A program made the position numbers and the translations under genes. From assembly GCA_019828595.1 (NCBI GenBank), contig JAHQRK010000020.1, positions 1,426,001-1,490,000 of the forward strand: a DNA stretch of 64,000 nucleotides, read 5' to 3'. Source of the DNA: Aphanomyces cochlioides (taxonomy: Eukaryota > Oomycota > Saprolegniomycetes > Saprolegniales > Verrucalvaceae). Numbering within the stretch: position 1 is the first letter of the stretch; the number at the start of each line of letters is the position of its first letter. Of the stretch, positions 12,465-61,083 are shown one piece after another. The notes under the pieces are model-generated. The model searched no databases, was not told the origin of the DNA, and saw only the letters and a program-made list of their open reading frames with translations.

Positions 12465-12620
12465 CTGCAATGGGGAGGTATATTAATAGACTTTCAATAT
12501 CTACTAATACTAATATTGCCTACTAACGGCTCATCCCACTTCCAAATGCTTCAGCAGATTTTCTACCTTGGGCTTTGGAGTACAGCGATTTTTGACTTTT
12601 GAATAAATACTTGGGGCTTG

Positions 12621-19311: not shown

Positions 19312-20525
19312 CTAGGCTGAATTGGAAATCAATTTGGCTTTTCGTTTTCTTGATTCGCTTCGACGTTGGGACTTCGATTTCTTCGGTGTTTGTAAGCTAA
19401 CACGGCGAATATGTCGGATAAAACTGACTCTTGGCATCTGACCCAGGGGGTATACATTTTCATTGTCTTGGATCATACATAGACTTCGGTCTATGCAGCG
19501 CTTGTATCGCTTGGCGAGGACCCAGCAATGGGATGTTGAATCAGTGACAGAAACAACCAAGAATTCTCCGTCAGGCTCATCCAATATCGCTCTACAGATA
19601 TCACGAATTGGATCACCCACCGATTGCTTGAGCAGTTGACGGGAGAATATGGCGTCGTTGTAGTGGAATCCATGTGTGTATGCCAGCTTGAGAAAATCAT
19701 GCATCTTGGAAGGGGGAATGCCCGCGTCTTGAGGAACTCCATGGGCCTCTTTGAAACCCGAAATGACTTCTTCGCTGAGCTCAAAATTGGAGACATTCAA
19801 ATTGGTAGCAACGATTCGGATTGCAGCCGCAAGACAAGATTTGTCACTGTTGTTGCCAATTTCTAGCCACAGAGGATCCATCGCTCGAAATTCAGCAAGC
19901 GTTGGGGCGAGACCAGTGTTCGTGAGGAAGTGGGCTCCAGCTTGTCGCCATCGTTGGTACATCGCCACGGCTTCTTGACACCCGCTGAGGTCTTTTTCGT
20001 CGAACCAGTCTTTGTCGAGTCCATCCGGGCGTTGAAACTTCCAGTTGACTTGGTATTGAATAGTTGAAATTCGATTTCGCATTGATGCCACTTCGCGGTG
20101 GTCATCGATAAACAACACTTCATCGATGTCATCATCGTCGGTTGGAATTCGCAGAGTGCGTGGGCGGTTGGTTGGGGCATCAGCCGTTGTCGCATTCGTT
20201 TGTGGCCTGGCTGGAACAGAAACATCGTCCAATAGATCCATGAGGGATGGTAGCGGAGATCCATTGTCATTGCCCAAGGGGTCAAATTCGCGGGTGCTCG
20301 AGTTCAAAATGGCATATCAGGAGTAAATTGGTGTTCTTCAGTTGTAACTGGACTTGAAGGACGAGTGTCGGATGATTGCGTCATAGGTACAGAAATCTCA
20401 ACTCCATCCACTCCCTCAAGAGTAATCCCTGGAGACATCGAGCTCCCCACACCTCGTGTAGTTATGGGTCTCGACGTCTGCGCGGGGAGTACGCTATCGG
20501 CAGTGAAAATCGTTGAAGCTTCCAT
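19312..20525 (-). pseudogene. LINE-B ORF3 (chromodomain-like + putative Cys protease), frameshifted
   Basis: Homologous to the intact ORF3 of L7, with ATG at 20523-20525 and TAG at 19312-19314. A 1-bp deletion near 20312 (AAATGGCATATC against AAATGGACATATC in L7) breaks the frame at about residue 71. It lies upstream of the chromodomain-like and protease-like regions, which remain open (19312-20307) but without their N-terminus. Confidence 0.85.
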
Positions 20526-24940: not shown

Positions 24941-24955
24941 TCCGGTCATAGCTCA
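24941..24955 (+). repeat. Target-site duplication between L6 and L7
   Basis: TCCGGTCATAGCTCA, shared by the stacked family B elements. Confidence 0.92.
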
Positions 24956-25015
24956 ATGTCAATGGGGAGTCTATTTGTAGTTAATGTAAACTACAAACTA
25001 ATATTGCCCGAAGGC
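24956..25015 (-). promoter_or_regulatory. LINE-B 3'UTR double hairpin, probable RT recognition structure
   Basis: Read on the - strand, the first hairpin is GCC-TTCG-GGC (25006-25015), a UUCG tetraloop. The second is TTTGTAGTT / AACTACAAA (24974-24982 with 24989-24997), a perfect 9-bp stem with a 6-nt loop. They are followed by the terminal CTCCCCATTG motif. Family A has the same layout with different stem sequences. Conserved terminal structure with changed sequence suggests the signal ORF2 uses for target-primed reverse transcription. Confidence 0.7.
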
Positions 25016-25033
25016 TCATCCCATTTCCAACTG

Positions 25034-26248
25034 CTAGGCTGAATTGGAAATCAATTTGGCTTTTCGTTTTCTTGATTCGCTTCGACGTTGGGACTTCGAT
25101 TTCTTCGGTGTTTGTAAGCTAACACGGCGAATATGTCGGATAAAACTGACTCTTGGCATCTGACCCAGGGGGTATACATTTTCATTGTCTTGGATCATAC
25201 ATAGACTTCGGTCTATGCAGCGCTTGTATCGCTTGGCGAGGACCCAGCAATGGGATGTTGAATCAGTGACAGAAACAACCAAGAATTCTCCGTCAGGCTC
25301 ATCCAATATCGCTCTACAGATATCACGAATTGGATCACCCACCGATTGCTTGAGCAGTTGACGGGAGAATATGGCGTCGTTGTAGTGGAATCCATGTGTG
25401 TATGCCAGCTTGAGAAAATCATGCATCTTGGAAGGGGGAATGCCCGCGTCTTGAGGAACTCCATGGGCCTCTTTGAAACCCGAAATGACTTCTTCGCTGA
25501 GCTCAAAATTGGAGACATTCAAATTGGTAGCAACGATTCGGATTGCAGCCGCAAGACAAGATTTGTCACTGTTGTTGCCAATTTCTAGCCACAGAGGATC
25601 CATCGCTCGAAATTCAGCAAGCGTTGGGGCGAGACCAGTGTTCGTGAGGAAGTGGGCTCCAGCTTGTCGCCATCGTTGGTACATCGCCACGGCTTCTTGA
25701 CACCCGCTGAGGTCTTTTTCGTCGAACCAGTCTTTGTCGAGTCCATCCGGGCGTTGAAACTTCCAGTTGACTTGGTATTGAATAGTTGAAATTCGATTTC
25801 GCATTGATGCCACTTCGCGGTGGTCATCGATAAACAACACTTCATCGATGTCATCATCGTCGGTTGGAATTCGCAGAGTGCGTGGGCGGTTGGTTGGGGC
25901 ATCAGCCGTTGTCGCATTCGTTTGTGGCCTGGCTGGAACAGAAACATCGTCCAATAGATCCATGAGGGATGGTAGCGGAGATCCATTGTCATTGCCCAAG
26001 GGGTCAAATTCGCGGGTGCTCGAGTTCAAAATGGACATATCAGGAGTAAATTGGTGTTCTTCAGTTGTAACTGGACTTGAAGGACGAGTGTCGGATGATT
26101 GCGTCATAGGTACAGAAATCTCAACTCCATCCACTCCCTCAAGAGTAATCCCTGGAGACATCGAGCTCCCCACACCTCGTGTAGTTATGGGTCTCGACGT
26201 CTGCGCGGGGAGTACGCTATCGGCAGTGAAAATCGTTGAAGCTTCCAT
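25034..26248 (-). CDS. LINE-B ORF3: chromodomain-like + putative papain-fold cysteine protease
   Basis: 404 aa from the first in-frame ATG (26246-26248) to TAG. The frame is open further upstream without an ATG, to a TGA in the same frame as ORF2; ORF2 ends in TAA ten codons before that TGA. Residues 1-130 are Ser/Thr/Pro-rich. Residues ~134-191 resemble a chromodomain: VLFIDDHR, YQVNWKF, DWFDEKDL and EAVAMYQRW align with the usual EKILDHR, YLVKWKG, WEPEENL and the C-terminal helix. Then comes a Cys-box (DKSCLAAAI, Cys231), a later SHCWVLA (His333) and IQDNEN (Asp354), in the Cys-His-Asp order of papain-like proteases; the Cys-box also resembles OTU enzymes. The tail (382-399) is Lys/Arg-rich. 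Chromatin targeting and deubiquitinase-like activity are inferences. Confidence 0.75.
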   Translation of the reverse strand: MEASTIFTADSVLPAQTSRPITTRGVGSSMSPGITLEGVDGVEISVPMTQSSDTRPSSPVTTEEHQFTPDMSILNSSTREFDPLGNDNGSPLPSLMDLLDDVSVPARPQTNATTADAPTNRPRTLRIPTDDDDIDEVLFIDDHREVASMRNRISTIQYQVNWKFQRPDGLDKDWFDEKDLSGCQEAVAMYQRWRQAGAHFLTNTGLAPTLAEFRAMDPLWLEIGNNSDKSCLAAAIRIVATNLNVSNFELSEEVISGFKEAHGVPQDAGIPPSKMHDFLKLAYTHGFHYNDAIFSRQLLKQSVGDPIRDICRAILDEPDGEFLVVSVTDSTSHCWVLAKRYKRCIDRSLCMIQDNENVYPLGQMPRVSFIRHIRRVSLQTPKKSKSQRRSESRKRKAKLISNSA

Positions 26249-26461
26249 TGTTGTTGTCTTGGGTAAAATCAAAAGTGAGTCTTGGAGAATTGTTTTGAGA
26301 TTCTCACTGAACTTATTCTCAGTTGCGACACTTGAGTCAGGCACGATTTGATTGGGCAGTGAAATGTTTTGCGCGGATCGTGAGTGATGGTCGCCAGGAT
26401 TCCCAATCAAAAATTCAGCTGGGATACCAAGTCAAGAATACAGCTGGGGCTTGTAATCAAA

Positions 26462-29400
26462 TTACTGGTGTTCAACTCGAAAAGACATGGGATATTTGTC
26501 GAATAGCTCGTTGTATCCAGCTTGAGAGAAAAGGACTGAGACCGCTTCGATGATGTTTCGATAGTCGAAGTCGTCAGGCGAGAGCAAACGAATTGTTCGC
26601 CTGATGGAAGCTGTCCAACTGACAAATATAATCTCGTTCCATAGTAAAATCGGTAGAGGCTTTTTGCCATCGAACTTGGTTGCATTTCTTTGAGTCCATA
26701 AGGAGTACGTGATGGAAGCACAAAGGAGGGACCATAATTTGAATAATGCGTCATGCAGGTGTTTTCCTCGCGTATTGGTCTTGAAGCGACTGATATTCGT
26801 GGTGGTTGCCCAATCAAACTTAACACCATAAGCACTCCATGCTCGCTCTTGGAACATCCAAACTTGATGTACATGATGACATGTATGGAAGGCATGATGA
26901 AAAGTCTCAACATCCGAGCAATCTTCGTAGACACAACAAATAGCGTCAGGGTTTTGGATCTGCATATAGGAAAACCTCGAGTTGACGGGTAACATCTTCA
27001 TGTGCAATCGAAACCATACATCGCCTTGAACAGGTGGAGGTAGATTACACACAGTACGAATGAGACGGATATACTTTGCTATGTCTTTGTCAGTTCTTGT
27101 CGTAGTCTTCATAGGATGTATAGCTTCAGTCTGGGGGGCGTGGTAAGCTAAATGCACCACGTTTTTCTTGGGCCACGACTCGAAAGGTAAATCAGCATCC
27201 TTGATTCTGGCTGTAAACGGATGTTGACAAGTCGGGACATTAGGCAGTGGCGACCCTTGCCGAATGTCAAACGATCGAACAACTTTGTCGAAGATTCGTG
27301 TGAGTTGATTGTAAATGTCGGTTGTGCGGGGCAATGTGGCAAAGTCCATGACTCCGTCCTGGTTTAGACAAACTTGGGCAGCTGGATTGTTCGACGACAT
27401 TCGGTTCACGAACATGGTCTCTGTTGGCCAAGCACCATGTGGGGTCAGGAAATCCTTCAGGCATCTGAGACCATTTTTGGCCCCGTGGCGGCACCAGAGA
27501 CGCATGTCTTCATCTTTCACGACATTTGCTAACATCTTAGCAGAGCCGAAGTGCATTGCGTCGTAGGCTGTGAGCCATACCGGGAGGTTCAGTACCGTGT
27601 CGAGATTTGGAGGCACGCCGATTCGCTTACTCATGTCTGTGGCTGACCAATGTTTCCAAGTATCAAGCCACAGTGGATGGAGCTCGCGAAGCAAAAGCCA
27701 CTTGGAGCTTGCATTTGGGTAGTATGAAAGAAAATCGAATGGGTGACTGTCTCGGAATAACTGATGTATTGTGCGGCTAAATTGTCGCTGTACAAGTTTC
27801 TTCCACACCAGGGTTTCACCAGGAGAATCGGCAGACATAAAGAGCTGTAAACGAAGAAGGCGTTGTGTTCGCAGCCTCGATGCAATGTGGGGGATTCCCA
27901 AGCCTAAAGGCTTGTCGTACTGCCACCTTCTATGGATTGAGGGACGGTAACTCTCATCGAGCTGGGTCTTGCGGCAAAGTATGAACTTGTTTAACATTTG
28001 TTGCCACGTAACGACCATAGCAGGAGGCACAGGTACAACGGCTGTTACATGCCACAACATAGATAGCAACATCGTGGAGGCAATAAGCTTTCGGCCCTGC
28101 AATGTCCTTGCTCGTTTACCCCATAGTTGAAAGGACGAGATGAATTTGTCGTTGAGTTTTTGAAGTTGGGAGTCAGCCGAAAGTCGATGGCCAAAGAGAA
28201 TACCAAGATATTTCGTACACTGACCAGTTGGTACGATATTGAGCAAACCATCTGCTTCGATGTCTTCTTGATCGAGATGGTCGTTGAGAACCAAGGTCAT
28301 GCACTTGGAACGATTCAGACGGGCCCCTGAAGCCGTGCAAAACTCTTCCACAATTGCCATTTGCTCCACAGCAGATTGCAGCGAGTTTGATAACAACGTC
28401 GAGTCGTCGGCAAAGAATATACTCGTAATAACTGAGTCGTGGGGGAGAGCGATTCCAAGATGTGGGGACGCTCGGAGCATCTCACCAAGAGGTTCTAGGT
28501 ATAGGACGAACAGTAGGCATGATAAAGGACAGCCTTGTTTGACGCCTCGGGTAGGTCGGATCTTAGGGCCAAGCTCGCCATTGAAGATGATCTGGACCAA
28601 AGGTGAGTCGTACAAAAGAGCTACCCACGCAATGAAACCATCACCAGTGTTGACTTCTCTCAGCACATCAAGCATGAATTCTCGATCCACCATGTCGTAC
28701 GCTTTCGAAAAGTCAAGGAATGTTGCATAGTAGTCGTGATCTTCGTTGGTGCAAAACGTTTGCAAAGTTTGCACAAGCAGGACGTGGTCATGCAGCCGTC
28801 GTCCTGGGACAAAGCCAGCTTGACTTGGGTGAATGAGATGAGGAGCTACTGTAGCCAGGCGATAAGCGAGGGCACGGGATAGTATCTTCACCTCCACTGA
28901 CATGAGTGCAATAGGTCGGTAGTTTCCAGGATCGCCTCGATCACCAGCTTTGAAGAGCAGAGCCACAGCACTACGCCTTTGTTGAAGGAGTAGTTTACCG
29001 TGGTGGTGAAGTTGGTAGTTGAAGACCCTGACCAGGATTTCGGAGAAAGCCTCGGGTGCTACTTGGAAGAAGGCCGCTGGCCATCCATCAGGACCAGGAG
29101 ACTTGTTTGGACTCATTGTCTTGAGAGCACTACACAGCTCGGCTGCTGTGATAGGTCTGTCTAGCTCCTCGCGTTGCTCATCATTGAGTTTGCGGGAGAT
29201 AAACCGTATGACAGCCCTCCGCCTCGCCCGGTTTAGCCGAGGTTGTTCGCCACGAGTGGTAGTCATTATTGCCTTCCAATGGGCAGTGAATCTCTCTTTG
29301 ATAGTGGTAGGATCAGACACGGGAATGCCATCGACGTTGACCGTCGTGATAGGAACCTTGAGTCCTTGTGGCCTTCGAAAGAAGTGGCTCGTACCGCGTT

Positions 29401-30599
29401 CGTTGATATTTGCATGAAAATCGAATTGCTGATCCATGCGGTATTGGCGATATTCGATTCTTGCGTTTTCCAGCGCCAACCGAGTAGCATCAACGGCAGC
29501 CTCGTCGAGCAAGCCAGCTTCGTATGATCGTTGTGCAGATATATGTCTCAGTTTTAGGCTTTTGAGCTCGTGTTGCATGGATTGGAGGTGGTGGCGATGA
29601 CATTGTTGTAAACGTCGTTTGATTCGCTTAAGCCACCCATACCAGACGGCTCCCATGTTTGTCGATTCGTCCGCACGCATCTCAGAGAGGAGGTGTGATG
29701 CCTCTTCTCGTATGGCTTTGATGACGAGCGGGTCTTTGAGTAGCTCTCTCGGCAGCCTCCAGTAGCCACGGGTCGTGGGTGTATGACTTGTAGAGAGAAC
29801 GACAGTGTGCTCCAAGTGATCTCCGGCAAAGCTGTTAGTGGCATATTTTGAGCTTTGGTAGGATTGGGCAACTAAATCTTGGTCAATGAACCAGTAGTCC
29901 AGACGATTGCTTCGTCCTGGACCGCTTGCCAGTCTTTCGTGAGGGTGGTGTAGGCGCCACGCGTCGATGACTCCTAGTTGTGACAGCCAGGCAAGACATT
30001 CGACTTTTCCAAAGGTGTGATCTTGCCGTGGTTTGGAAGCATCGAGGTGTTCGTTGACAGGAAGGTTAAAATCTCCCCCAACCAGGTGTACACTGTTAGC
30101 TTCAAAAGCGCGAGGGAGACTGTCAAAGAAACTAGCCCGATGTTGAGGGGTAACTGGCGCGTAAATGTTGTGGATGTAGACTGGGGTTTCATCCCAGTAC
30201 GTTTTGATCACAATATAACGGCCAGGGATATCGTGTTGTGATAAGTGCACCAGGCTTGAGAATCCAGGCATCGATTCGTGAAAGTATGATGCAACGCCAC
30301 ATCGACGGTTGTTCAAAATTGTCCGTGCGGGTTGTTCGTAAGTCGTTGGTAAAAAGTTTGTACTTGCTAACACCCACTTCGTTGTCGAGGTGAGTGTGGA
30401 AAGTGTCAAGATGTTTTGCGTTGTTGAGTTTCGTTTCTTGAAAGAGAACAGCTTGTGTCGGTTTCCGAAGACGCCGTGCAACAAGATGTCCGTTTTCTTT
30501 CAGCCCATTGAGGTTGCTCGTCGTCACTTCAAGTATGGGGAGCTTGACAAAATGACCAGCCGCGACCACTTTAGCCACGGGAAGCGATCGTTGTGAGAT
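26462..30599 (-). pseudogene. LINE-B ORF2 (APE + RT), start codon lost and frameshifted
   Basis: The start codon position 30597-30599 reads ATC here, against ATG in L6. A 1-bp insertion in an A run near 30315 breaks the frame at about residue 95, inside the endonuclease domain. The remainder is open to TAA at 26462-26464 and retains APE motifs (NVHLVGGDFN-type, SNRLDYW, FAGDH), RT motifs A (DFSKAYDMVD), B (GVKQGCPLS) and C (FADD), and a C-terminal CCHC-type finger that is disrupted in L6. A consensus of L6 and L7 would have every domain, but neither copy is intact. Confidence 0.92.
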
Positions 30600-33036
30600 C
30601 CGCTAGGTCGCCGTGAATTAAAGTAGGTTCGCTTGGGTGAAACATGACTTGATTGTGGAGAGTGATATCCAAATCGTTGCTTTCGTGTAGTTGAAGGATT
30701 TTTGTCATGATGTGACACATCGATTCTCCGTCGCCAGTGTACATGAATTCCATTCTGTTCCATATGTGGAGGCCAAGGTCGGTGTACATCAGGAGTGACA
30801 TGAGCGTTTCGGAGGATAGACTGCGTTTACCAAGGCGAGAGGGTAACGCTGTCACTGGACTTTTTGTTGAGGCCAAAATTGCCGCATCGCTATTGAAATA
30901 TAGTGGAGCATGAACTGCCATCAATACTTCTGCAATGGCCAGCACTTCTTCGACTTCAACTCTGTTGAGGACGATGTCATCATCGGTGATGATTGCCTCG
31001 ATGAGTGGGAGGTTGTTGACCATCTTCTGGTCACTGAACACCGAGATCACGTGGTCGTGAGTGATTGGAGTGCCGAATGTTGCCTCGTAGAGCTGACCAA
31101 AAGATTTTGTGCCACCACCAGACGCTCTTAGCCAACGATTAAGCAGTCGAAGACGAACAAAGTATTCGAAGCTGTCACGATTGGAGACAAAAATTTGGTG
31201 CAGTTGCAGTCCAAATTCGATTGGCGCACGTTCTAGATGGATGCAGATCGTGTCAACACGCCCGTCCGTAATCAATTTCAATAAGTTGAAGGAATCGTGC
31301 GCTAACGCTTCCTTAACTTGGGCCGGGATATGTTGTGGTGCGTTTTGAGCCTTGGTGTCAAGGTCGTTGAGCTCGGCAAGTATGGCATCGAGAGACTTCT
31401 CAAACCTTTGGATTGAGCCCTCGTGGGGTTTGATCCCGCTAATGAACTCTTCAGCGGCAACGTGCACCTTGTCACCAGATTTGAGTGTCAGCTTTGGAAC
31501 AATTACTTTGACAGTGGTGTTGCCAACTGTCGTTTCGTGTTCCTCGGGCTCAACATTAGCGCGTTCGTCCAGAGCCGCAAACATGTTCGGGGAGATCCAA
31601 GGACGATCAGGAGCTGGGATTGAGCCAGCGGAGATTGGGGTTTTCTTTCTTTTGCCTGTAGTTTGAACTTCAGTCCATTCCTTGTTGCTGTCTCGGGTCG
31701 TTTTCTGCCGTTTGGCAGTGGATGTCGAGACAGCGGCGTCTCCCCGTGGGCGGTGAGGGGTTGCGTGAAGTCCATGTTGGGTGGCGATTACATCGAGGTC
31801 AAGGCGCGCGAGCTTCTTGTCACGGTAAAACCATCCTTGACCAAACACGCGGAGGCACCGACCCTTGAAAATGAATTCTTCAATTGATCGACCGTCATTG
31901 TGCATAGATTCGGGTATAGCTGTCCCTTCAAAATACAAGCGATAACGAGAGCTAGCCAAGCCAGTCGTCGAGGAAACTGTGGAGTATGAGCCCCACAAAA
32001 AGCGCGGCTCAAGCTTTGACATGATGCTGAACATGAGACGTTCTTCATCCTGTCCTTGGAGACCAGATGGGATATCGATGAAATATCCATCAAGTATATG
32101 GGGCTCAGTCATGACAAATCTCTGAGAGCTGCCATCCTTTGCCACTTGGATCTTGAGAGAGACTCCACGCAGCTTTTTAAGAGCATCTTCAGAGGCTATG
32201 CCCCACTTGAGAAGACGATTGGAGACATCTTTCTCGCACTTGATGACATCGACAAATGCATCGTCCAAATCAAGCGCTTGGTTGTCAAACAATAGAGATG
32301 TCATTGCCTTGGAGATGTCGATGTATTTGGTGTATTGGCCAGTGGACATTTGTAGCCAGCCAACAACATCTCTGGGGGAATGTTTTTGGATGGGCAAAGT
32401 GTCGTCAAACGTGAGAGATCCTGTCGCGCGTTTTTGCAACAAGGACGCCAGCTCGGCCATAGTTGGTCGATAATGGCCGACGTCACTGTTCCGCTGAGCC
32501 TTGGCAGATTTAGCTCTCTGCTTGGCTTGGAATTCCCACACGCATTCGTTTGGCTTTTTGGTCGAGGTGTTCGACTCGGGTGGTATTGGCACGGAGCGTG
32601 TTGTAGCAGGAGGCGAGGCATCGATTTGAGCTTCAGGCTCCATTTCCACATCAACATTGGTGTCGCGAATCGATTGGTCTTCAGAGCGCGGCTCCAGCTC
32701 AGTGGCTTGAGTAATCGGTGGGGTATGTGGTTGGTTGTTGTTGGAGATATCCTCTATGTCTTCATCAGGCATCGGAGAAACATTATCCTTGTTGACAGTT
32801 TTGTCGCTGGTACGAGCGCTTGGTAATGGCACGCGACCACCGAGTGTAGCAAGACGTATGGGCGGTTGAGCAGCAGGCGGAGTTTTGTCGATGATTGAGT
32901 CAGGTTCATCGTCATCATCATCGTCAACAATCACCTCCATGATACTAGAAGCGTCCGAGGTATTGCGAAAGGGAGAGACAGAAAAAGCTGAGGGCTTGTG
33001 TGCATGAGCACGGCTGGAAGAGCGGGTAGTCGCCAT
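30571..33036 (-). CDS. LINE-B ORF1 protein
   Basis: 821 aa from ATG (33034-33036, MATTRSSSRA) to TAA at 30571-30573. The N-terminus (~1-160) is low complexity with an acidic run (VDDDDDDEPD). From about residue 160 it aligns with family A ORF1 (VWEFQAKQRAKSAKA, TLPIQKHS, RCLRVFGQGW, WISPNMFAALDER). A basic stretch (KRQKTT ... GKRKKT, ~439-462) could be nuclear localising or RNA binding. No CCHC zinc knuckle is visible, unlike many L1/Tx1-type ORF1 proteins. By position it should be the RNA-binding partner of ORF2; the fold is not recognised. It overlaps ORF2 by 29 nt. Confidence 0.88.
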   Translation of the reverse strand: MATTRSSSRAHAHKPSAFSVSPFRNTSDASSIMEVIVDDDDDDEPDSIIDKTPPAAQPPIRLATLGGRVPLPSARTSDKTVNKDNVSPMPDEDIEDISNNNQPHTPPITQATELEPRSEDQSIRDTNVDVEMEPEAQIDASPPATTRSVPIPPESNTSTKKPNECVWEFQAKQRAKSAKAQRNSDVGHYRPTMAELASLLQKRATGSLTFDDTLPIQKHSPRDVVGWLQMSTGQYTKYIDISKAMTSLLFDNQALDLDDAFVDVIKCEKDVSNRLLKWGIASEDALKKLRGVSLKIQVAKDGSSQRFVMTEPHILDGYFIDIPSGLQGQDEERLMFSIMSKLEPRFLWGSYSTVSSTTGLASSRYRLYFEGTAIPESMHNDGRSIEEFIFKGRCLRVFGQGWFYRDKKLARLDLDVIATQHGLHATPHRPRGDAAVSTSTAKRQKTTRDSNKEWTEVQTTGKRKKTPISAGSIPAPDRPWISPNMFAALDERANVEPEEHETTVGNTTVKVIVPKLTLKSGDKVHVAAEEFISGIKPHEGSIQRFEKSLDAILAELNDLDTKAQNAPQHIPAQVKEALAHDSFNLLKLITDGRVDTICIHLERAPIEFGLQLHQIFVSNRDSFEYFVRLRLLNRWLRASGGGTKSFGQLYEATFGTPITHDHVISVFSDQKMVNNLPLIEAIITDDDIVLNRVEVEEVLAIAEVLMAVHAPLYFNSDAAILASTKSPVTALPSRLGKRSLSSETLMSLLMYTDLGLHIWNRMEFMYTGDGESMCHIMTKILQLHESNDLDITLHNQVMFHPSEPTLIHGDLADLTTIASRG

Positions 33037-33087: not shown

Positions 33088-33195
33088 CCGGTCATAGCTC
33101 AGTTGGTAGAGCGTTTGACTGTAGTGGAAAGTTGTATTGGATTCAGTATGGCTTCAGAAATCAAATGGCCACCGGTTCGATTCCGGTTGACCGGA
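33088..33195 (+). tRNA. tRNA-Tyr(GTA), intact, with intron (T5)
   Basis: Full 108-bp gene with 35-nt intron and all stems as in T3. It was regenerated by the target duplication of L7, so its 5' flank is the L7 5' module. A T5 terminator follows within 11 nt. Confidence 0.96.
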
Positions 33196-34281
33196 CTCTC
33201 TTTTTCACACTTTCATCTCCTTTCCTTCTCTTACCCTCTTTTTTCCACCTCTCTCTTCATCTTCACGACCTTTACACGTCCCAACATTTAGATTCATCAC
33301 ATTTACCTACACATACAACAACTACACACGATACAGTCTATTCCAATGCCACACAAACAAATCTACGCGTTTTCACCAGCATTCACGCGGCATGAGCCAT
33401 CATTGCTCTGTCTTGTTTATTTCATGTGCAGGACACATTGGATGCACCCCAAAAGACATTACAATCAAGAGGAATCACATTCCCTTACATACGTTGTCGT
33501 GCCAGTATTTTTGTCGCTCGTCAATCTCTGACAAAAACTCCTCCACGTAGTAGCATAGAAGTGCCATTTTGAAGGTCCAGTGAGCATACATGCCCCACAG
33601 CTCCTACGTTTGCCTTTCGGATGTCTGTGACGGCTCAGTTCAAAGTAGTTCGGGGTTGACGTTTTAAGTGATGCCTCGCTAATTCATTGATCGAAATGAA
33701 CAACACGTTATTTAAACATGGTTGCTTCTTGGAGGATAAAACAGTTTATGTTGGTTGTCCAAAATGAACAGCCTCATACTTTCCAACCTCTGAATTGAGG
33801 TATAATCCCTTTGCAAAAACAAATCGCAACGACGTTTGGCTTCAACACAGAGAGAGGAGGAAAAAGAGTCTACCAATCGCACACGCATACATTCCGTTCT
33901 TGTTGTGTCGTTGTTTTAGTCACTCATATTTTGGCAAGTCATATATACATTCTTTTTGGGGGGACACAGCACGAGGATTCATCGTGCTAACTTGGTGCGT
34001 GCTGTGTGGCCACGGTGCGACGTTGGTACGGAGACTTCTCTACAACACTGCATGAGGCAGAGCGAAGAGCTTGGTAAAGGGTAAGAGTGTTTGTAAATAA
34101 GAAGGTGGATGGAATGCGATGTTGTAGATGAAATGGCAGAGACGAGTCTCTGAAAATGGGCTGGAAGATAGTGAGGACTATAAGAATACAGGGTGTAGGA
34201 TGTGGTTGATGATGCCAGTTGGTAGTGTATGTAGATGACTAAAATAGTGTGTGAAAGGTCGGTGGCTGGAGGACGTATGTG
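33196..34281 (+). repeat. tRNA-Tyr array spacer, unit U5
   Basis: Standard spacer with a T5G6 tract. No gene is supported. Confidence 0.9.
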
Positions 34282-34282
34282 T

Positions 34283-34390
34283 CCGGTCATAGCTCAGTTG
34301 GTAGAGCGTTTGACTGTAGTGGAAAGTTGTATTGGATTCAGTATGGCTTCAGAAATCAAATGGCCACCGGTTCGATTCCGGTTGACCGGA
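34283..34390 (+). tRNA. tRNA-Tyr(GTA), intact, with intron (T6)
   Basis: Identical 108-bp gene with native spacer on both sides; first of three uninterrupted internal units. Intron, boxes and terminator are as in T3. Confidence 0.96.
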
Positions 34391-35475
34391 CTCTCTTTTT
34401 CACACTTTCATCTCCTTTCCTTCTCTTGCCCTCTTTTTTCCACCTCTCTCTTCATCTTCACGACCTTTACACGTCCCAACATTTAGACTCATCACATTTA
34501 CCTACACATACAACAACTACACACGATACAGTCTATTCCAATGCCACACAAACAAATCTACGCGTTTTCACCAGCATTCACGCGGCATGAGCCATCATTG
34601 CTCTGTCTTGTTTATTTCATGTGCAGGACACATTGGATGCACCCCAAAAGACATTACAATCAAGAGGAATCACATTCCCTTACATACGTTGTCGTGCCAG
34701 TATTTTTGTCGCTCGTCAATCTCTGACAAAAACTCCTCCACGTAGTAGCATAGAAGTGCCATTTTGAAGGTCCAGTGAGCATACATGCCCCACAGCTCCT
34801 ACGTTTGCCTTTCGGATGTCTGTGACGGCTCAGTTCAAAGTAGTTCGGGGTTGACGTTTTAAGTGATGCCTCGCTAATTCATTGATCGAAATGAACAACA
34901 CGTTATTTAAACATGGTTGCTTCTTGGAGGATAAAACAGTTTATGTTGGTTGTCCAAAATGAACAGCCTCATACTTTCCAACCTCTGAATTGAGGTATAA
35001 TCCCTTTGCAAAAACAAATCGCAACGACGTTTGGCTTCAACACAGAGAGAGGAGGAAAAAGAGTCTACCAATCGCACACGCATACATTCCGTTCTTGTTG
35101 TGTCGTTGTTTTAGTCACTCATATTTTGGCAAGTCATATATACATTCTTTTGGGGGGACACAGCACGAGGAGTCATCGTGCTAACTTGGTGCGTGCTGTG
35201 TGGCCACGGTGCGACGTTGGTACGGAGACTTCTCTACAACACTGCATGAGGCAGAGCGAAGAGCTTGGTAAAGGGTAAGAGTGTTTGTAAATAAGAAGGT
35301 GGATGGAATGCGATGTTGTAGATGAAATGGCAGAGACGAGTCTCTGAAAATGGGCTGGAAGATAGTGAGGACTATAAGAATACAGGGTGTAGGATGTGGT
35401 TGATGATGCCAGTTGGTAGTGTATGTAGATGACTAAAATAGTGTGTGAAAGGTCGGTGGCTGGAGGACGTATGTG
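34391..35475 (+). repeat. tRNA-Tyr array spacer, unit U6
   Basis: Standard spacer with a T4G6 tract. Private SNPs are CTTGCCCTC near 34427, TTTAGACTC near 34486, and GGAGTCATC in the loop of the inverted repeat near 35171. No gene is supported. Confidence 0.9.
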
Positions 35476-35483
35476 TCCGGTCA

Positions 35484-35495
35484 TAGCTCAGTTGG
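35484..35495 (+). promoter_or_regulatory. A box of tRNA-Tyr (reference copy T7)
   Basis: TAGCTCAGTTGG matches the A-box consensus TRGCNNAGTTGG. In occupied genes the LINE 3' end joins after the seventh base (TAGCTCA), so the insertion target is inside this promoter element. Confidence 0.9.
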
Positions 35496-35562
35496 TAGAG
35501 CGTTTGACTGTAGTGGAAAGTTGTATTGGATTCAGTATGGCTTCAGAAATCAAATGGCCACC

Positions 35563-35573
35563 GGTTCGATTCC
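35563..35573 (+). promoter_or_regulatory. B box of tRNA-Tyr (reference copy T7)
   Basis: GGTTCGATTCC is a perfect B-box consensus. The 11 bp missing from T1, T2 and T4 equal this element. Confidence 0.92.
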
Positions 35574-35584
35574 GGTTGACCGGA

Positions 35585-36669
35585 CTCTCTTTTTCACACT
35601 TTCATCTCCTTTCCTTCTCTTACCCTCTTTTTTCCACCTCTCTCTTCATCTTCACGACCTTTACACGTCCCAACATTTAGATTCATCACATTTACCTACA
35701 CATACAACAACTACACACGATACAGTCTATTCCAATGCCACACAAACAAATCTACGCGTTTTCACCAGCATTCACGCGGCATGAGCCATCATTGCTCTGT
35801 CTTGTTTATTTCATGTGCAGGACACATTGGATGCACCCCAAAAGACATTACAATCAAGAGGAATCACATTCCCTTACATACGTTGTCGTGCCAGTATTTT
35901 TGTCGCTCGTCAATCTCTGACAAAAACTCCTCCACGTAGTAGCATAGAAGTGCCATTTTGAAGGTCCAGTGAGCATACATGCCCCACAGCTCCTACGTTT
36001 GCCTTTCGGATGTCTGTGACGGCTCAGTTCAAAGTAGTTCGGGGTTGACGTTTTAAGTGATGCCTCGCTAATTCATTGATCGAAATGAACAACACGTTAT
36101 TTAAACATGGTTGCTTCTTGGAGGATAAAACAGTTTATGTTGGTTGTCCAAAATGAACAGCCTCATACTTTCCAACCTCTGAATTGAGGTATAATCCCTT
36201 TGCAAAAACAAATCGCAACGACGTTTGGCTTCAACACAGAGAGAGGAGGAAAAAGAGTCTACCAATCGCACACGCATACATTCCGTTCTTGTTGTGTCGT
36301 TGTTTTAGTCACTCATTTTTGGCAAGTCATATATACATTCTTTTTGGGGGGACACAGCACGAGGATTCATCGTGCTAACTTGGTGCGTGCTGTGTGGCCA
36401 CGGTGCGACGTTGGTACGGAGACTTCTCTACAACACTGCATGAGGCAGAGCGAAGAGCTTGGTAAAGGGTAAGAGTGTTTGTAAATAAGAAGGTGGATGG
36501 AATGCGATGTTGTAGATGAAATGGCAGAGACGAGTCTCTGAAAATGGGCTGGAAGATAGTGAGGACTATAAGAATACAGGGTGTAGGATGTGGTTGATGA
36601 TGCCAGTTGGTAGTGTATGTAGATGACTAAAATAGTGTGTGAAAGGTCGGTGGCTGGAGGACGTATGTG
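35585..36669 (+). repeat. tRNA-Tyr array spacer, unit U7
   Basis: Standard spacer with a T5G6 tract and a small deletion giving CACTCATTTTTGG near 36312. No gene is supported. Confidence 0.9.
35590..35594 (+). terminator. Pol III terminator of tRNA-Tyr (reference copy T7)
   Basis: A T5 run starting 6 nt after the discriminator base. It is present at the same distance in all eleven loci, with a second T6 run about 45 nt further on. Confidence 0.88.
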
Positions 36670-36670
36670 T

Positions 36671-36778
36671 CCGGTCATAGCTCAGTTGGTAGAGCGTTTG
36701 ACTGTAGTGGAAAGTTGTATTGGATTCAGTATGGCTTCAGAAATCAAATGGCCACCGGTTCGATTCCGGTTGACCGGA
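36671..36778 (+). tRNA. tRNA-Tyr(GTA), intact, with intron (T8)
   Basis: Identical 108-bp gene with native flanks; last of the four-unit run 33088-37864. Intron, boxes and terminator are as in T3. Confidence 0.96.
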
Positions 36779-37864
36779 CTCTCTTTTTCACACTTTCATC
36801 TCCTTTCCTTCTCTTACCCTCTTTTTTCCACCTCTCTCTTCATCTTCACGACCTTTACACGTCCCAACATTTAGATTCATCACATTTACCTACACATACA
36901 ACAACTACACACGATACAGTCTATTCCAATGCCACACAAACAAATCTACGCGTTTTCACCAGCATTCACGCGGCATGAGCCATCATTGCTCTGTCTTGTT
37001 TATTTCATGTGCAGGACACATTGGATGCACCCCAAAAGACATTACAATCAAGAGGAATCACATTCCCTTACATACGTTGTCGTGCCAGTATTTTTGTCGC
37101 TCGTCAATCTCTGACAAAAACTCCTCCACGTAGTAGCATAGAAGTGCCATTTTGAAGGTCCAGTGAGCATACATGCCCCACAGCTCCTACGTTTGCCTTT
37201 CGGATGTCTGTGACGGCTCAGTTCAAAGTAGTTCGGGGTTGACGTTTTAAGTGATGCCTCGCTAATTCATTGATCGAAATGAACAACACGTTATTTAAAC
37301 ATGGTTGCTTCTTGGAGGATAAAACAGTTTATGTTGGTTGTCCAAAATGAACAGCCTCATACTTTCCAACCTCTGAATTGAGGTATAATCCCTTTGCAAA
37401 AACAAATCGCAACGACGTTTGGCTTCAACACAGAGAGAGGAGGAAAAAGAGTCTACCAATCGCACACGCATACATTCCGTTCTTGTTGTGTCGTTGTTTT
37501 AGTCACTCATATTTTGGCAAGTCATATATACATTCTTTTTGGGGGGACACAGCACGAGGATTCATCGTGCTAACTTGGTGCGTGCTGTGTGGCCACGGTG
37601 CGACGTTGGTACGGAGACTTCTCTACAACACTGCATGAGGCAGAGCGAAGAGCTTGGTAAAGGGTAAGAGTGTTTGTAAATAAGAAGGTGGATGGAATGC
37701 GATGTTGTAGATGAAATGGCAGAGACGAGTCTCTGAAAATGGGCTGGAAGATAGTGAGGACTATAAGAATACAGGGTGTAGGATGTGGTTGATGATGCCA
37801 GTTGGTAGTGTATGTAGATGACTAAAATAGTGTGTGAAAGGTCGGTGGCTGGAGGACGTATGTG
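36779..37864 (+). repeat. tRNA-Tyr array spacer, unit U8
   Basis: Standard spacer with a T5G6 tract. No gene is supported. Confidence 0.9.
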
Positions 37865-37879
37865 TCCGGTCATAGCTCA
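37865..37879 (+). repeat. Left target-site duplication / tRNA stub (L8)
   Basis: TCCGGTCATAGCTCA, followed by the L8 3' end (CTGCAATGGGGAGG). The right copy at 45205-45219 is part of the regenerated tRNA T9. Confidence 0.94.
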
Positions 37880-59263: not shown

Positions 59264-61083
59264 CTCCCAGCATGAGTGTCTGAGTGTCGGGTTGGAACAT
59301 CACTTGGTTGTCGAAGGTGGGGTCCAGGGAGCCAGCCTCATGGAATTCCAGGATCGTGGTCAAGACGTATCGCGACTTCTCGTCTTCGCCGGCATACAAC
59401 GTTTCCATGATATTCCAAATCAAGAGGCCGAAGCTCGTGTCAAGCAATATGGCAGATAGCGATACGCCCGACAAACAGCGGGAGCCCAAATGAGAAGCCA
59501 GTGCAGTGACCGGGTACTTGGTAGAGGCCACGATCGCAGCATCACTGTTGTAGTACGTTGGAGCATGAATGGCCAAGAGAACTTCTGCCACAGCCAACAC
59601 TTCTTCCAGGTCGCCGCGGTGGAGGGAAATCTCGTCGCCGTCAATGGTAGTATCGATGAAGTCGATGTTCTTGAATAGCTCGATGTTGCTGAAGATGGCT
59701 TGAACGTGCTCGCGGGTCATACGCACACCCCACGTCAATGAGTACAGCTGGGAGAACGGTTTGTCTCCACCCCAAGTCGCTCGAAGCCACCGATGGAGGA
59801 GGCGTTGTCTCACAAAGTACTCAAAGCATGCACGGTCTTCATCAAAAAGTCGGTGCAGTTGCAAGCCAAATTCAATCGGGGAACGCTCGAGATGGCTACA
59901 CAGCATGTCGACGCGGCCGTCGTTGATGAGTTGGGCAAGGTTGAACGAGCTGTTGGTCACTGCATCTTCGACTTGGGTTGAGAGATGCAATGGAACTTTG
60001 GCTGTCTTGGTGTCGAGGTCTTGTAGTTCGGCGAGAATTTCGTCAAGAGACATTTCTATGCGCTTGGGAACGCCATCTTGGATCTTGGTGCCGCCGACAA
60101 ATTGACCGGACGTAGGGAGGTGGGGAGGGTCATCCGAGACGTCCAGCTTGGGTACAATCGTTGAGATCTTGTAATCGCCAAACTGAGCAACGTGTTCCTC
60201 GGGGTTGACACACACACGTTCGTCGAGGGCTTCAAACATGTTGGGCGAAATCCAAGAGCGGCCATGCTCGGGGGAATCCACTTGCTGTTGCGTCTTCTTG
60301 CGCTTGCCTCTCGACGCCTTGACGCCAGTCCACTGCGGAGGGTTGGCTTGCGCAGTTTTCCGACGTTTTGGCGCCTTGGGAGTCGAAGAAGGCGGGTTGG
60401 TTGGGCTGGGAGCTGGCTTGTTCAATCCATATTGGCGGGACGTTGCATCAAGGTCCAAACGAACCAAGTTCTTGTCACGAAAATACCACCCTTGACCGTA
60501 CACGCGGAGACAACGGCCCTTGAAAAGAATTTCTTCGACGAGACGGCCGTCGCGCTGTATGGTCGTTGGTACGGAGGTTCCTTCAAAGTAAAGGCGGTAC
60601 CGAGAGCTCGCCATACCGCTTGAAGAGGAAACGTTGGGGTAGGAGCCCCACAGGAAGCGTGGCTCCAACTTGGTCATGACGTCGAAGATCAGGCGCTCTT
60701 CGTCTTGATCTTGAAGGCCTTGAGGGATGTCCATGAAAAATCCGCCGAGGACGTGCGGAACGTTCATCGTGAAGTGTTGGGACGAGCCATCTCGAGCGAC
60801 TTGAATCTTAAACGCGATGCCTCGCAGCTTCGTCATCGCTTCGTGAGAGGCAACACCCCACTTGAGCATGCGGTTCGGGATGTCCTTCTCGCATCTCACA
60901 ATGTCAGCAATCGCAGTGTCGAGGCCGAGGGCTTGGTTGTCGAAAAGGATCGATGCCATGGCAGCTGAAACATCGATGGTCTTCGTGTGTGCACCCGTGG
61001 GCATCTGCAACCAGCCGACGATGCCGCGCGCCGAGTGCTTCTGGATCGGGAGGGTGTCTTCAAACGTGAGGGTTCCAGCAGCA
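59226..61083 (-). pseudogene. LINE-A ORF1, C-terminal two thirds
   Basis: The frame is open from the truncation point to the normal TAA, with CAG (not TAG) at the codon mutated in L9. It retains the conserved core (GWLQMPTGAH, RCLRVYGQGW, WISPNMFEALDER) and lacks the low-complexity N-terminus and native start. It overlaps ORF2 by 38 nt. Confidence 0.88.

Follow-up and report, generated by a model that had tools for sequence, protein, structure and literature searches.

What is the third open reading frame (ORF) for that one of two families of long interspersed nuclear elements (LINEs) carries in the genome of Aphanomyces cochlioides, the sugar-beet root-rot oomycete? The question is raised by a stretch of 64,000 nt (GCA_019828595.1, JAHQRK010000020.1), hereafter called the window, by whose numbering all positions are given. 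The window holds two LINE families, both on the minus strand: family A is composed of ORF1 and ORF2, followed by about 155 bp to the element end, and family B is composed of ORF1, ORF2 and ORF3. We propose that ORF3 would be an accessory gene of family B, a young, L1-like LINE specific to transfer RNA (tRNA) genes, and that its product may be a peptidase or deconjugase of the papain type that is tethered to chromatin and acts on host proteins, not on the choice of the insertion site; to this reading we give a probability of roughly 40%.

An earlier inspection of the letters alone (the sequence-only reading) had described ORF3 as a separate frame 3' of ORF2 that is missing from family A, and both points are borne out: the frame has 404 codons and lies on the minus strand, which had not been named, and in family A only the short segment of about 155 bp separates the ORF2 stop from the 3' end. 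The motifs quoted there are also all present, namely VLFIDDHR, YQVNWKF, DWFDEKDL, EAVAMYQRW, DKSCLAAAI, SHCWVLA and IQDNEN, together with the basic tail. The layout of ORF3 is as follows, where P0003 is a homologue of 360 aa encoded on a metagenome contig of 1627 bases.

25034..26248, minus strand: ORF3, 404 codons, from the first ATG past the ORF2 stop (start context CAACAACAATGGAAGC)
26249..26461, minus strand: spacer of 213 nt from the ORF2 stop to the ATG of ORF3, itself free of ATG and with a T tract of variable length
25892..26248, minus strand: residues 1-119, N-terminus of low complexity and poor conservation, 26% identical to P0003
25814..25891, minus strand: residues 120-145, with PRTLRIPTDDDDIDEVLFIDDHRE in a conserved motif, 81% identical to P0003
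25676..25801, minus strand: residues 150-191, matched by Pfam Chromo (PF00385) with 17.5 bits against a cut-off of 25.1
25121..25585, minus strand: residues 222-376, candidate papain-like peptidase domain
25556..25558, minus strand: codon of Cys231, candidate nucleophile early in a predicted helix, conserved in P0003
25250..25252, minus strand: codon of His333, candidate base at the start of a predicted strand, conserved in P0003
25187..25189, minus strand: codon of Asp354, candidate third residue at or just past the end of a predicted strand, conserved in P0003
25037..25120, minus strand: residues 377-404, basic tail with Lys or Arg at 10 of 28 positions

ORF3 opens at the ATG at 26248, with A at -3 and G at +4, and closes at the TAG at 25034, while the frame stays open further upstream to a TTG at 26410 (458 aa). 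Reading 25034-26248 on the plus strand was rejected because of many stops. In 1000 shuffles of the ORF3 stretch, the longest open frame was at most 233 codons versus the 404 observed, and the length of ORF3 hence exceeds the chance expectation.

When the A. cochlioides genome (76.2 Mb in 94 contigs) was searched, ORF3 gave at least 92 matches in one search and at least 113 in another, and 100 copies (L011-L110) were fetched for counting alignments, junctions and signs of selection. Ninety-eight of them align over all 1215 bases of ORF3 and the other two to base 1214, with small indels in six; half of the copies (50/100) are identical to the ORF3 of the window. An ORF of at least 398 aa from the same ATG is kept in 99 copies, L107 being broken early, and the three catalytic-type motifs are retained letter for letter in 96, although broken copies are under-represented because the copies were found by protein similarity. 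The T tract in the spacer is 5 long in 87/100 copies and 6 to 29 long in 10/100, the junction motif being missing in the remaining 3/100. We also noticed that a second frame on the minus strand (26407-26934, 175 codons open) spans the end of ORF2 and runs to the T tract, and that in some copies the ORF3 frame has 654-659 open codons, those inspected having a different T-tract length. Most of the copies are packed into dense clusters, each spanning roughly 140 to 380 kb, on the contigs labelled C15, C34, C36, C42 and C78.

Whether the protein itself is maintained can be judged at two distances. Among the copies there are 17 variable sites, 10 amino-acid-changing and 7 silent, versus 12.5 and 4.5 expected, and the ratio of 0.51 is not significant (P 0.13). 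P0003 is far more diverged, with 59% identity over 71% of the 458-aa frame; the identity is 65.6% for residues 120-404, 54.5% in the chromo-like region and 69% in the protease-like part, which is the best conserved large block. When neutral change was simulated to the divergence of P0003, the frame stayed free of stops in 5 of 2000 runs; also, the mean BLOSUM score of the changes between ORF3 and P0003 is -0.03 versus a neutral mean of -0.53, although the neutral maximum is 0.086, so that single neutral runs reach the observed value. The existence of a 59%-identical homologue argues for selection on the ORF3 protein, and constraint is thus strongly suggested by the sequences. The comparison of amino-acid-changing with silent substitutions (dN/dS) that the sequence-only reading had put forward as a check accordingly gives a divided answer, in that the copies show no significant departure but P0003 favors constraint. 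Known relatives are extremely few: among 5.8 billion proteins, searched at E up to 1 with the full length and at E up to 10 with either a two-sequence profile or just the protease region, only three proteins were found, two from A. cochlioides and P0003, the latter being the sole relative found outside the species. No family nearer to P0003 was seen in the A. cochlioides genome among the 113 scored of 222 candidates. A separate observation concerns P0004 (AC1031_020784), an annotated A. cochlioides protein in which part of ORF3 is joined to the C-terminal part of the family A ORF2, that is, a chimera of both families.

The center of ORF3 had been claimed to follow the chromodomain pattern, and this claim stands in part. 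For the fragment 25640-25900, the sole Pfam match is Chromo (17.5 bits, E 0.0039), where the E-value is slightly flattering because the fragment boundaries were chosen by us, and Chromo is again the sole Pfam match of P0003 (15.7 bits, E 0.015); both scores are, however, below the curated cut-off of 25.1, and the whole ORF3 has no match in Pfam. Chromodomain proteins make up seven of the ten PDB sequence matches obtained with the fragment, namely Swi6, CDYL twice, CDY1 and MPP8 three times, with a best E of 0.08. The chromodomain fold is a three-stranded barrel with a C-terminal helix, and methyl-lysine is bound in an aromatic cage. By eye, W162 and F164 are at cage-like positions, while the first cage aromatic is not evident, and the full-length ORF3 model, a low-confidence one with a predicted local distance difference test (pLDDT) score of 37.3, shows no strands in this region. 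A chromodomain in ORF3 is, therefore, plausible. All 150 chromodomain places scored in the A. cochlioides genome are above the cut-off, and a local source of the domain is easy to imagine in a genome so rich in chromodomains. One family considered as the source was rejected by eye; its member L115:183-1271 encodes an integrase-like protein of 362 aa with a C-terminal chromodomain, is followed by another long ORF and looks Polinton-like, and open frames of the same length recur at many places in the genome.

The region that follows had been read as a papain- or OTU-like triad, of which the papain part has fared better than the OTU part. In papain-like peptidases, the Cys is located at the N-terminus of a core helix, and the His and a polar residue are on strands 2 and 3, as described in the part of PMC10318531 available to us. 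A model of the ORF3 domain, again of low confidence (pLDDT 45.7), has the papain-type order and topology with the Cys in a helix, the His on a strand and the Asp after the next strand, the helix being predicted to start at residue 230 or at residue 225, depending on which of two low-confidence models is taken. The structural neighbors of this poor model are mostly papain-type, and its best PDB matches in Foldseek are papain-type peptidases with the C39 domain of ComA (3k8u, 5xe8) first. From these models we infer that the candidate triad Cys231-His333-Asp354 may support papain-type catalysis. Pfam profiles, searched with ORF3, P0003 and two fragments at E up to 10, assign no sequence family to the region; C39 (PF03412) is not matched, though nearest by Foldseek, and neither is OTU (PF02338). 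OTU proteases are marked by Asp or Asn two residues after the catalytic His and by Asp three residues before the catalytic Cys. In ORF3, the former position is Trp (H333-C334-W335) and the latter is indeed Asp (D228-K-S-C231), which is insufficient alone, and OTU was rejected. Ulp1/C48 (PF02902), whose catalytic order is His-Asp-Cys, was also rejected, given the order Cys-His-Asp in ORF3 and the lack of a profile match. A search of PDB with the two-sequence alignment returned one chance match (E 1.7), and the similarity of the protease fragment to WD40 (E 0.0013, with no single stretch passing) was likewise put down to chance. Fold searches with the full-length model were uninformative, and in BFVD an uncharacterized phage protein ranked first (E 0.04), with no nameable protein among the best matches. 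Taken together, chromo-like and papain-like folds are indicated, though not proven, in ORF3.

The element around ORF3 and its target are needed for asking what such a protein could do, and their features in the window are listed here for family B copy 1 and for copy 2.

30571..33036, minus strand: ORF1 of copy 1, 821 aa, no Pfam match
26462..30484, minus strand: ORF2 of copy 1, reverse transcriptase PF00078, frame apparently interrupted near the N-terminus
24956..25033, minus strand: 3' untranslated tail of copy 1, with a hairpin; layout and partly sequence common to family A
19312..20307, minus strand: second ORF3 copy, 331 aa open, with a frameshift in the N-terminal part
33088..33195, plus strand: intron-containing tRNA-Tyr gene (anticodon GTA by eye) abutting the 5' end of copy 1 and supplying, with its initial 14 nt, the second copy of the repeat
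24942..24955, plus strand: 14-bp repeat at the 3' end of copy 1, equal to the initial 14 nt of the tRNA-Tyr gene (CCGGTCATAGCTCA)

In copy 2, nearly all of ORF1 is missing and the frames of ORF2 and ORF3 differ from those of copy 1, so that neither copy in the window looks whole. ORF2 matches RVT_1 with E 1.3e-32; the family A ORF2 matches a LINE-1 ORF2 protein with E 3.5e-56 and L1 endonuclease chains with E 2.2e-4 at best, and the Exo_endo_phos profile gives E 0.0036 with family B copy 2 and E 0.024 with family A, both short of its cut-off. Judged by these similarities, the element is an L1-like non-LTR (long terminal repeat) retrotransposon with an L1-type reverse transcriptase and an APE endonuclease. 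A hairpin is predicted in the 3' tails of both families (24956-25033 and 12465-12620, minus strand), with different stem sequences.

On the plus strand, eight intron-containing tRNA matches in the window reach the Rfam threshold, and near-identical tRNA 5' parts are also found at about 8953 and 18036. The CCGGTCATAGCTCA sequence adjoins ten element 3' ends displayed in the window, and full tRNAs starting with the same 14 nt adjoin element 5' ends; the exception is a displayed junction near 59335 without CCGGTCATAGCTCA. With a 14-nt repeat at one end and a full tRNA at the other, insertion leaves the tRNA gene whole, as is seen for Tyr in the window, and the element could therefore fill tRNA arrays while costing the host little. 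Beyond the window, the family B 3' end is joined in all of the 100 fetched copies to a 14-mer (reverse complement ending GCTCA), in 13 different forms, which agrees with the earlier description of an RNA-gene-specific LINE by giving it a fixed insertion point in the tRNA 5' part. The form of the window is found in 16 copies; the GCCGCGATAGCTCA 14-mer opens 90 tRNA-like places, where one checked locus of two genes is tRNA-Phe(GAA), and the GCTCCTATGGCTCA 14-mer opens 53 places, where one checked locus, again of two genes, is tRNA-Met(CAT). Isotypes were traced for these three of the 13 forms, the one of the window being Tyr by eye. Because the end base is the same in 13 different tRNA-like 14-mers, the target of family B looks to be box A in general, beyond tRNA-Tyr. 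Tandem tRNA arrays (33088-37865; contigs C15, C34 and C78) have a repeat length of about 1195 bp for Tyr, 1124 bp for Phe and 1053 bp for Met, with antisense LINEs interspersed; in the Phe and Met arrays, elements are inside larger gaps between units. Some LINEs abut each other, separated only by the 14-bp tRNA piece.

How, then, might ORF3 serve such an element? The presence of a chromo-like module beside a papain-type domain, together with the basic tail, suggests that the protein is nuclear and acts on chromatin-bound substrates. The protein, with a disordered N-terminus ahead of these three parts, would enter the nucleus, where the chromo-like module would anchor it to chromatin or to histone tails; there it would cleave a host protein or strip a ubiquitin-like modifier, and this activity may aid the element against host silencing or at a repair step of insertion, while the insertion site would not be selected by ORF3. 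We infer here the disorder, the nuclear location, the catalysis, the substrate and the benefit. A peptidase or deconjugase is favored because the captured papain-related domains described in the accessible parts of PMC4640811 and PMC2836005 are SUMO or ubiquitin proteases of the Ulp1-like or OTU-like kind. A fuller version can be offered only tentatively: the ORF3 peptidase would belong to a new family that has hardly any known relatives and, joined to a histone reader, would strip ubiquitin-like marks from, or cut, chromatin proteins at tRNA arrays.

The same parts could be put together differently. If the papain-like part were a mere scaffold, ORF3 would be a catalytically dead or purely structural adaptor by which the retrotransposition complex is tethered to chromatin; the Chromo matches of the fragment and of P0003, the basic tail and the constraint on the chromo-like region as well (54.5% identity, and 81% in the motif of residues 120-145) all fit, but Cys231, His333 and Asp354 are kept in P0003 with their surroundings, and it is the protease-like part that is the best conserved large block (69%), which makes an inert adaptor doubtful. 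The evidence on the folds is weak throughout, and this weighs against a peptidase on chromatin and in favor of an accidental similarity to both folds, ORF3 then being a lineage-specific protein of another fold. Nonetheless, the separate weak signals (sequence for the chromo-like part, topology and fold neighbors for the papain-like part) fall on different, neighboring regions and are coherent together, and we consider such an accident unlikely.

The sequence-only reading had suggested that histone marks are read to find tRNA arrays, and ORF3 would then be a targeting factor directing insertion, as proposed for chromodomain LTR elements. Indeed, the element is at tRNA gene 5' parts in 100/100 fetched copies, and oomycete Chronos LTR elements are described with captured chromodomains in the available text of PMC5348765. 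Family A, however, uses the same tRNA-Tyr site without ORF3, so that ORF3 seems not to be required for site choice unless family A borrows it in trans; also, a single fixed box A junction over 13 14-mers points to recognition of the DNA sequence by the endonuclease or to factors bound at box A. The suggestion is thus weakened, and a targeting role appears quite unlikely. A maturation protease that cleaves the element's own ORF1 or ORF2 protein would be in keeping with a peptidase-like domain adjoining ORF1 and ORF2, but these are already separate ORFs, family A manages without ORF3 and, to our knowledge, LINEs do not need polyprotein processing; this role is very improbable. An accessory peptidase or deconjugase on chromatin is the reading that we carry into the comparison with known systems.

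The sequence-only reading had called the fusion new, and in the literature searched (non-LTR ORF3, the LINEs of this species, and tRNA or oomycete LINEs) we found no report of a chromo-protease fusion, of an L1-like LINE that carries one in a 3' ORF or of a multi-isotype box A target, which is not proof of absence as most subscription papers were outside this scope; captured proteases in LINEs are, on the other hand, already known. The comparisons below draw on the accessible portions of the papers cited. NeSL and Utopia-1_TSP (PMC4640811) are RNA-gene-specific non-LTR elements with a papain-related cysteine protease, NeSL-1_TV being specific to tRNA-Pro; there, the element protein has a Ulp1-like protease at its N-terminus, and the endonuclease is of the restriction-like type, whereas in family B, which is L1-like, the order is Cys-His-Asp and the protease-like domain is encoded, along with a chromo-like module, by an ORF of its own on the 3' side. 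Ginger1, Mutator and Helitron (PMC2836005) have also captured domains of the deubiquitinase or SUMO-protease type (OTU or Ulp1), for which a role of the ubiquitin/SUMO pathway in transposition is suggested, but these are DNA transposons with named Pfam families, and the word chromodomain is absent from that paper. Chronos elements of oomycetes (PMC5348765) are Ty3/Gypsy LTR elements in which the captured chromodomain comes after the integrase, with no such protease fusion described in the part at hand. Chromodomains are indeed named as accessory domains of LTR elements (PMC6338049), and capture of an ORF3 is known in other retroelements (PMC5408684). The best Foldseek neighbor of the weak ORF3 domain model is different again: the C39 peptidase domain of ComA (3k8u, 5xe8) is a domain of a bacterial transporter without detectable sequence match to ORF3. 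Its catalytic order is Cys-His-Asp, the same as in the candidate triad of ORF3. If our reading is true, a LINE carries its own chromatin-localized protease, which would hint that hosts restrict such elements via modified chromatin proteins; families A and B, without and with ORF3 at the same tRNA site in one genome, offer a natural comparison for the function of an accessory LINE protein.

The target is of interest in its own right, with box A of several tRNA isotypes and a 14-bp repeat that keeps the tRNA whole. Like family B, TRE5 and TRE3 of Dictyostelium are L1-clade non-LTR elements at tRNA genes, but their insertions lie away from the gene, about 40-54 bp upstream of it or 40-150 bp downstream, according to the available text of PMC5911963, whereas the family B junction is inside box A and the 14-bp repeat restores the tRNA. 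Closer in position are Dada-tIA, Dada-tIB and Dada-tY of Perkinsus, which insert at TAGCTC within tRNA genes and are, unlike family B, DNA transposons with a short target duplication, as given in the accessible part of PMC3706591.
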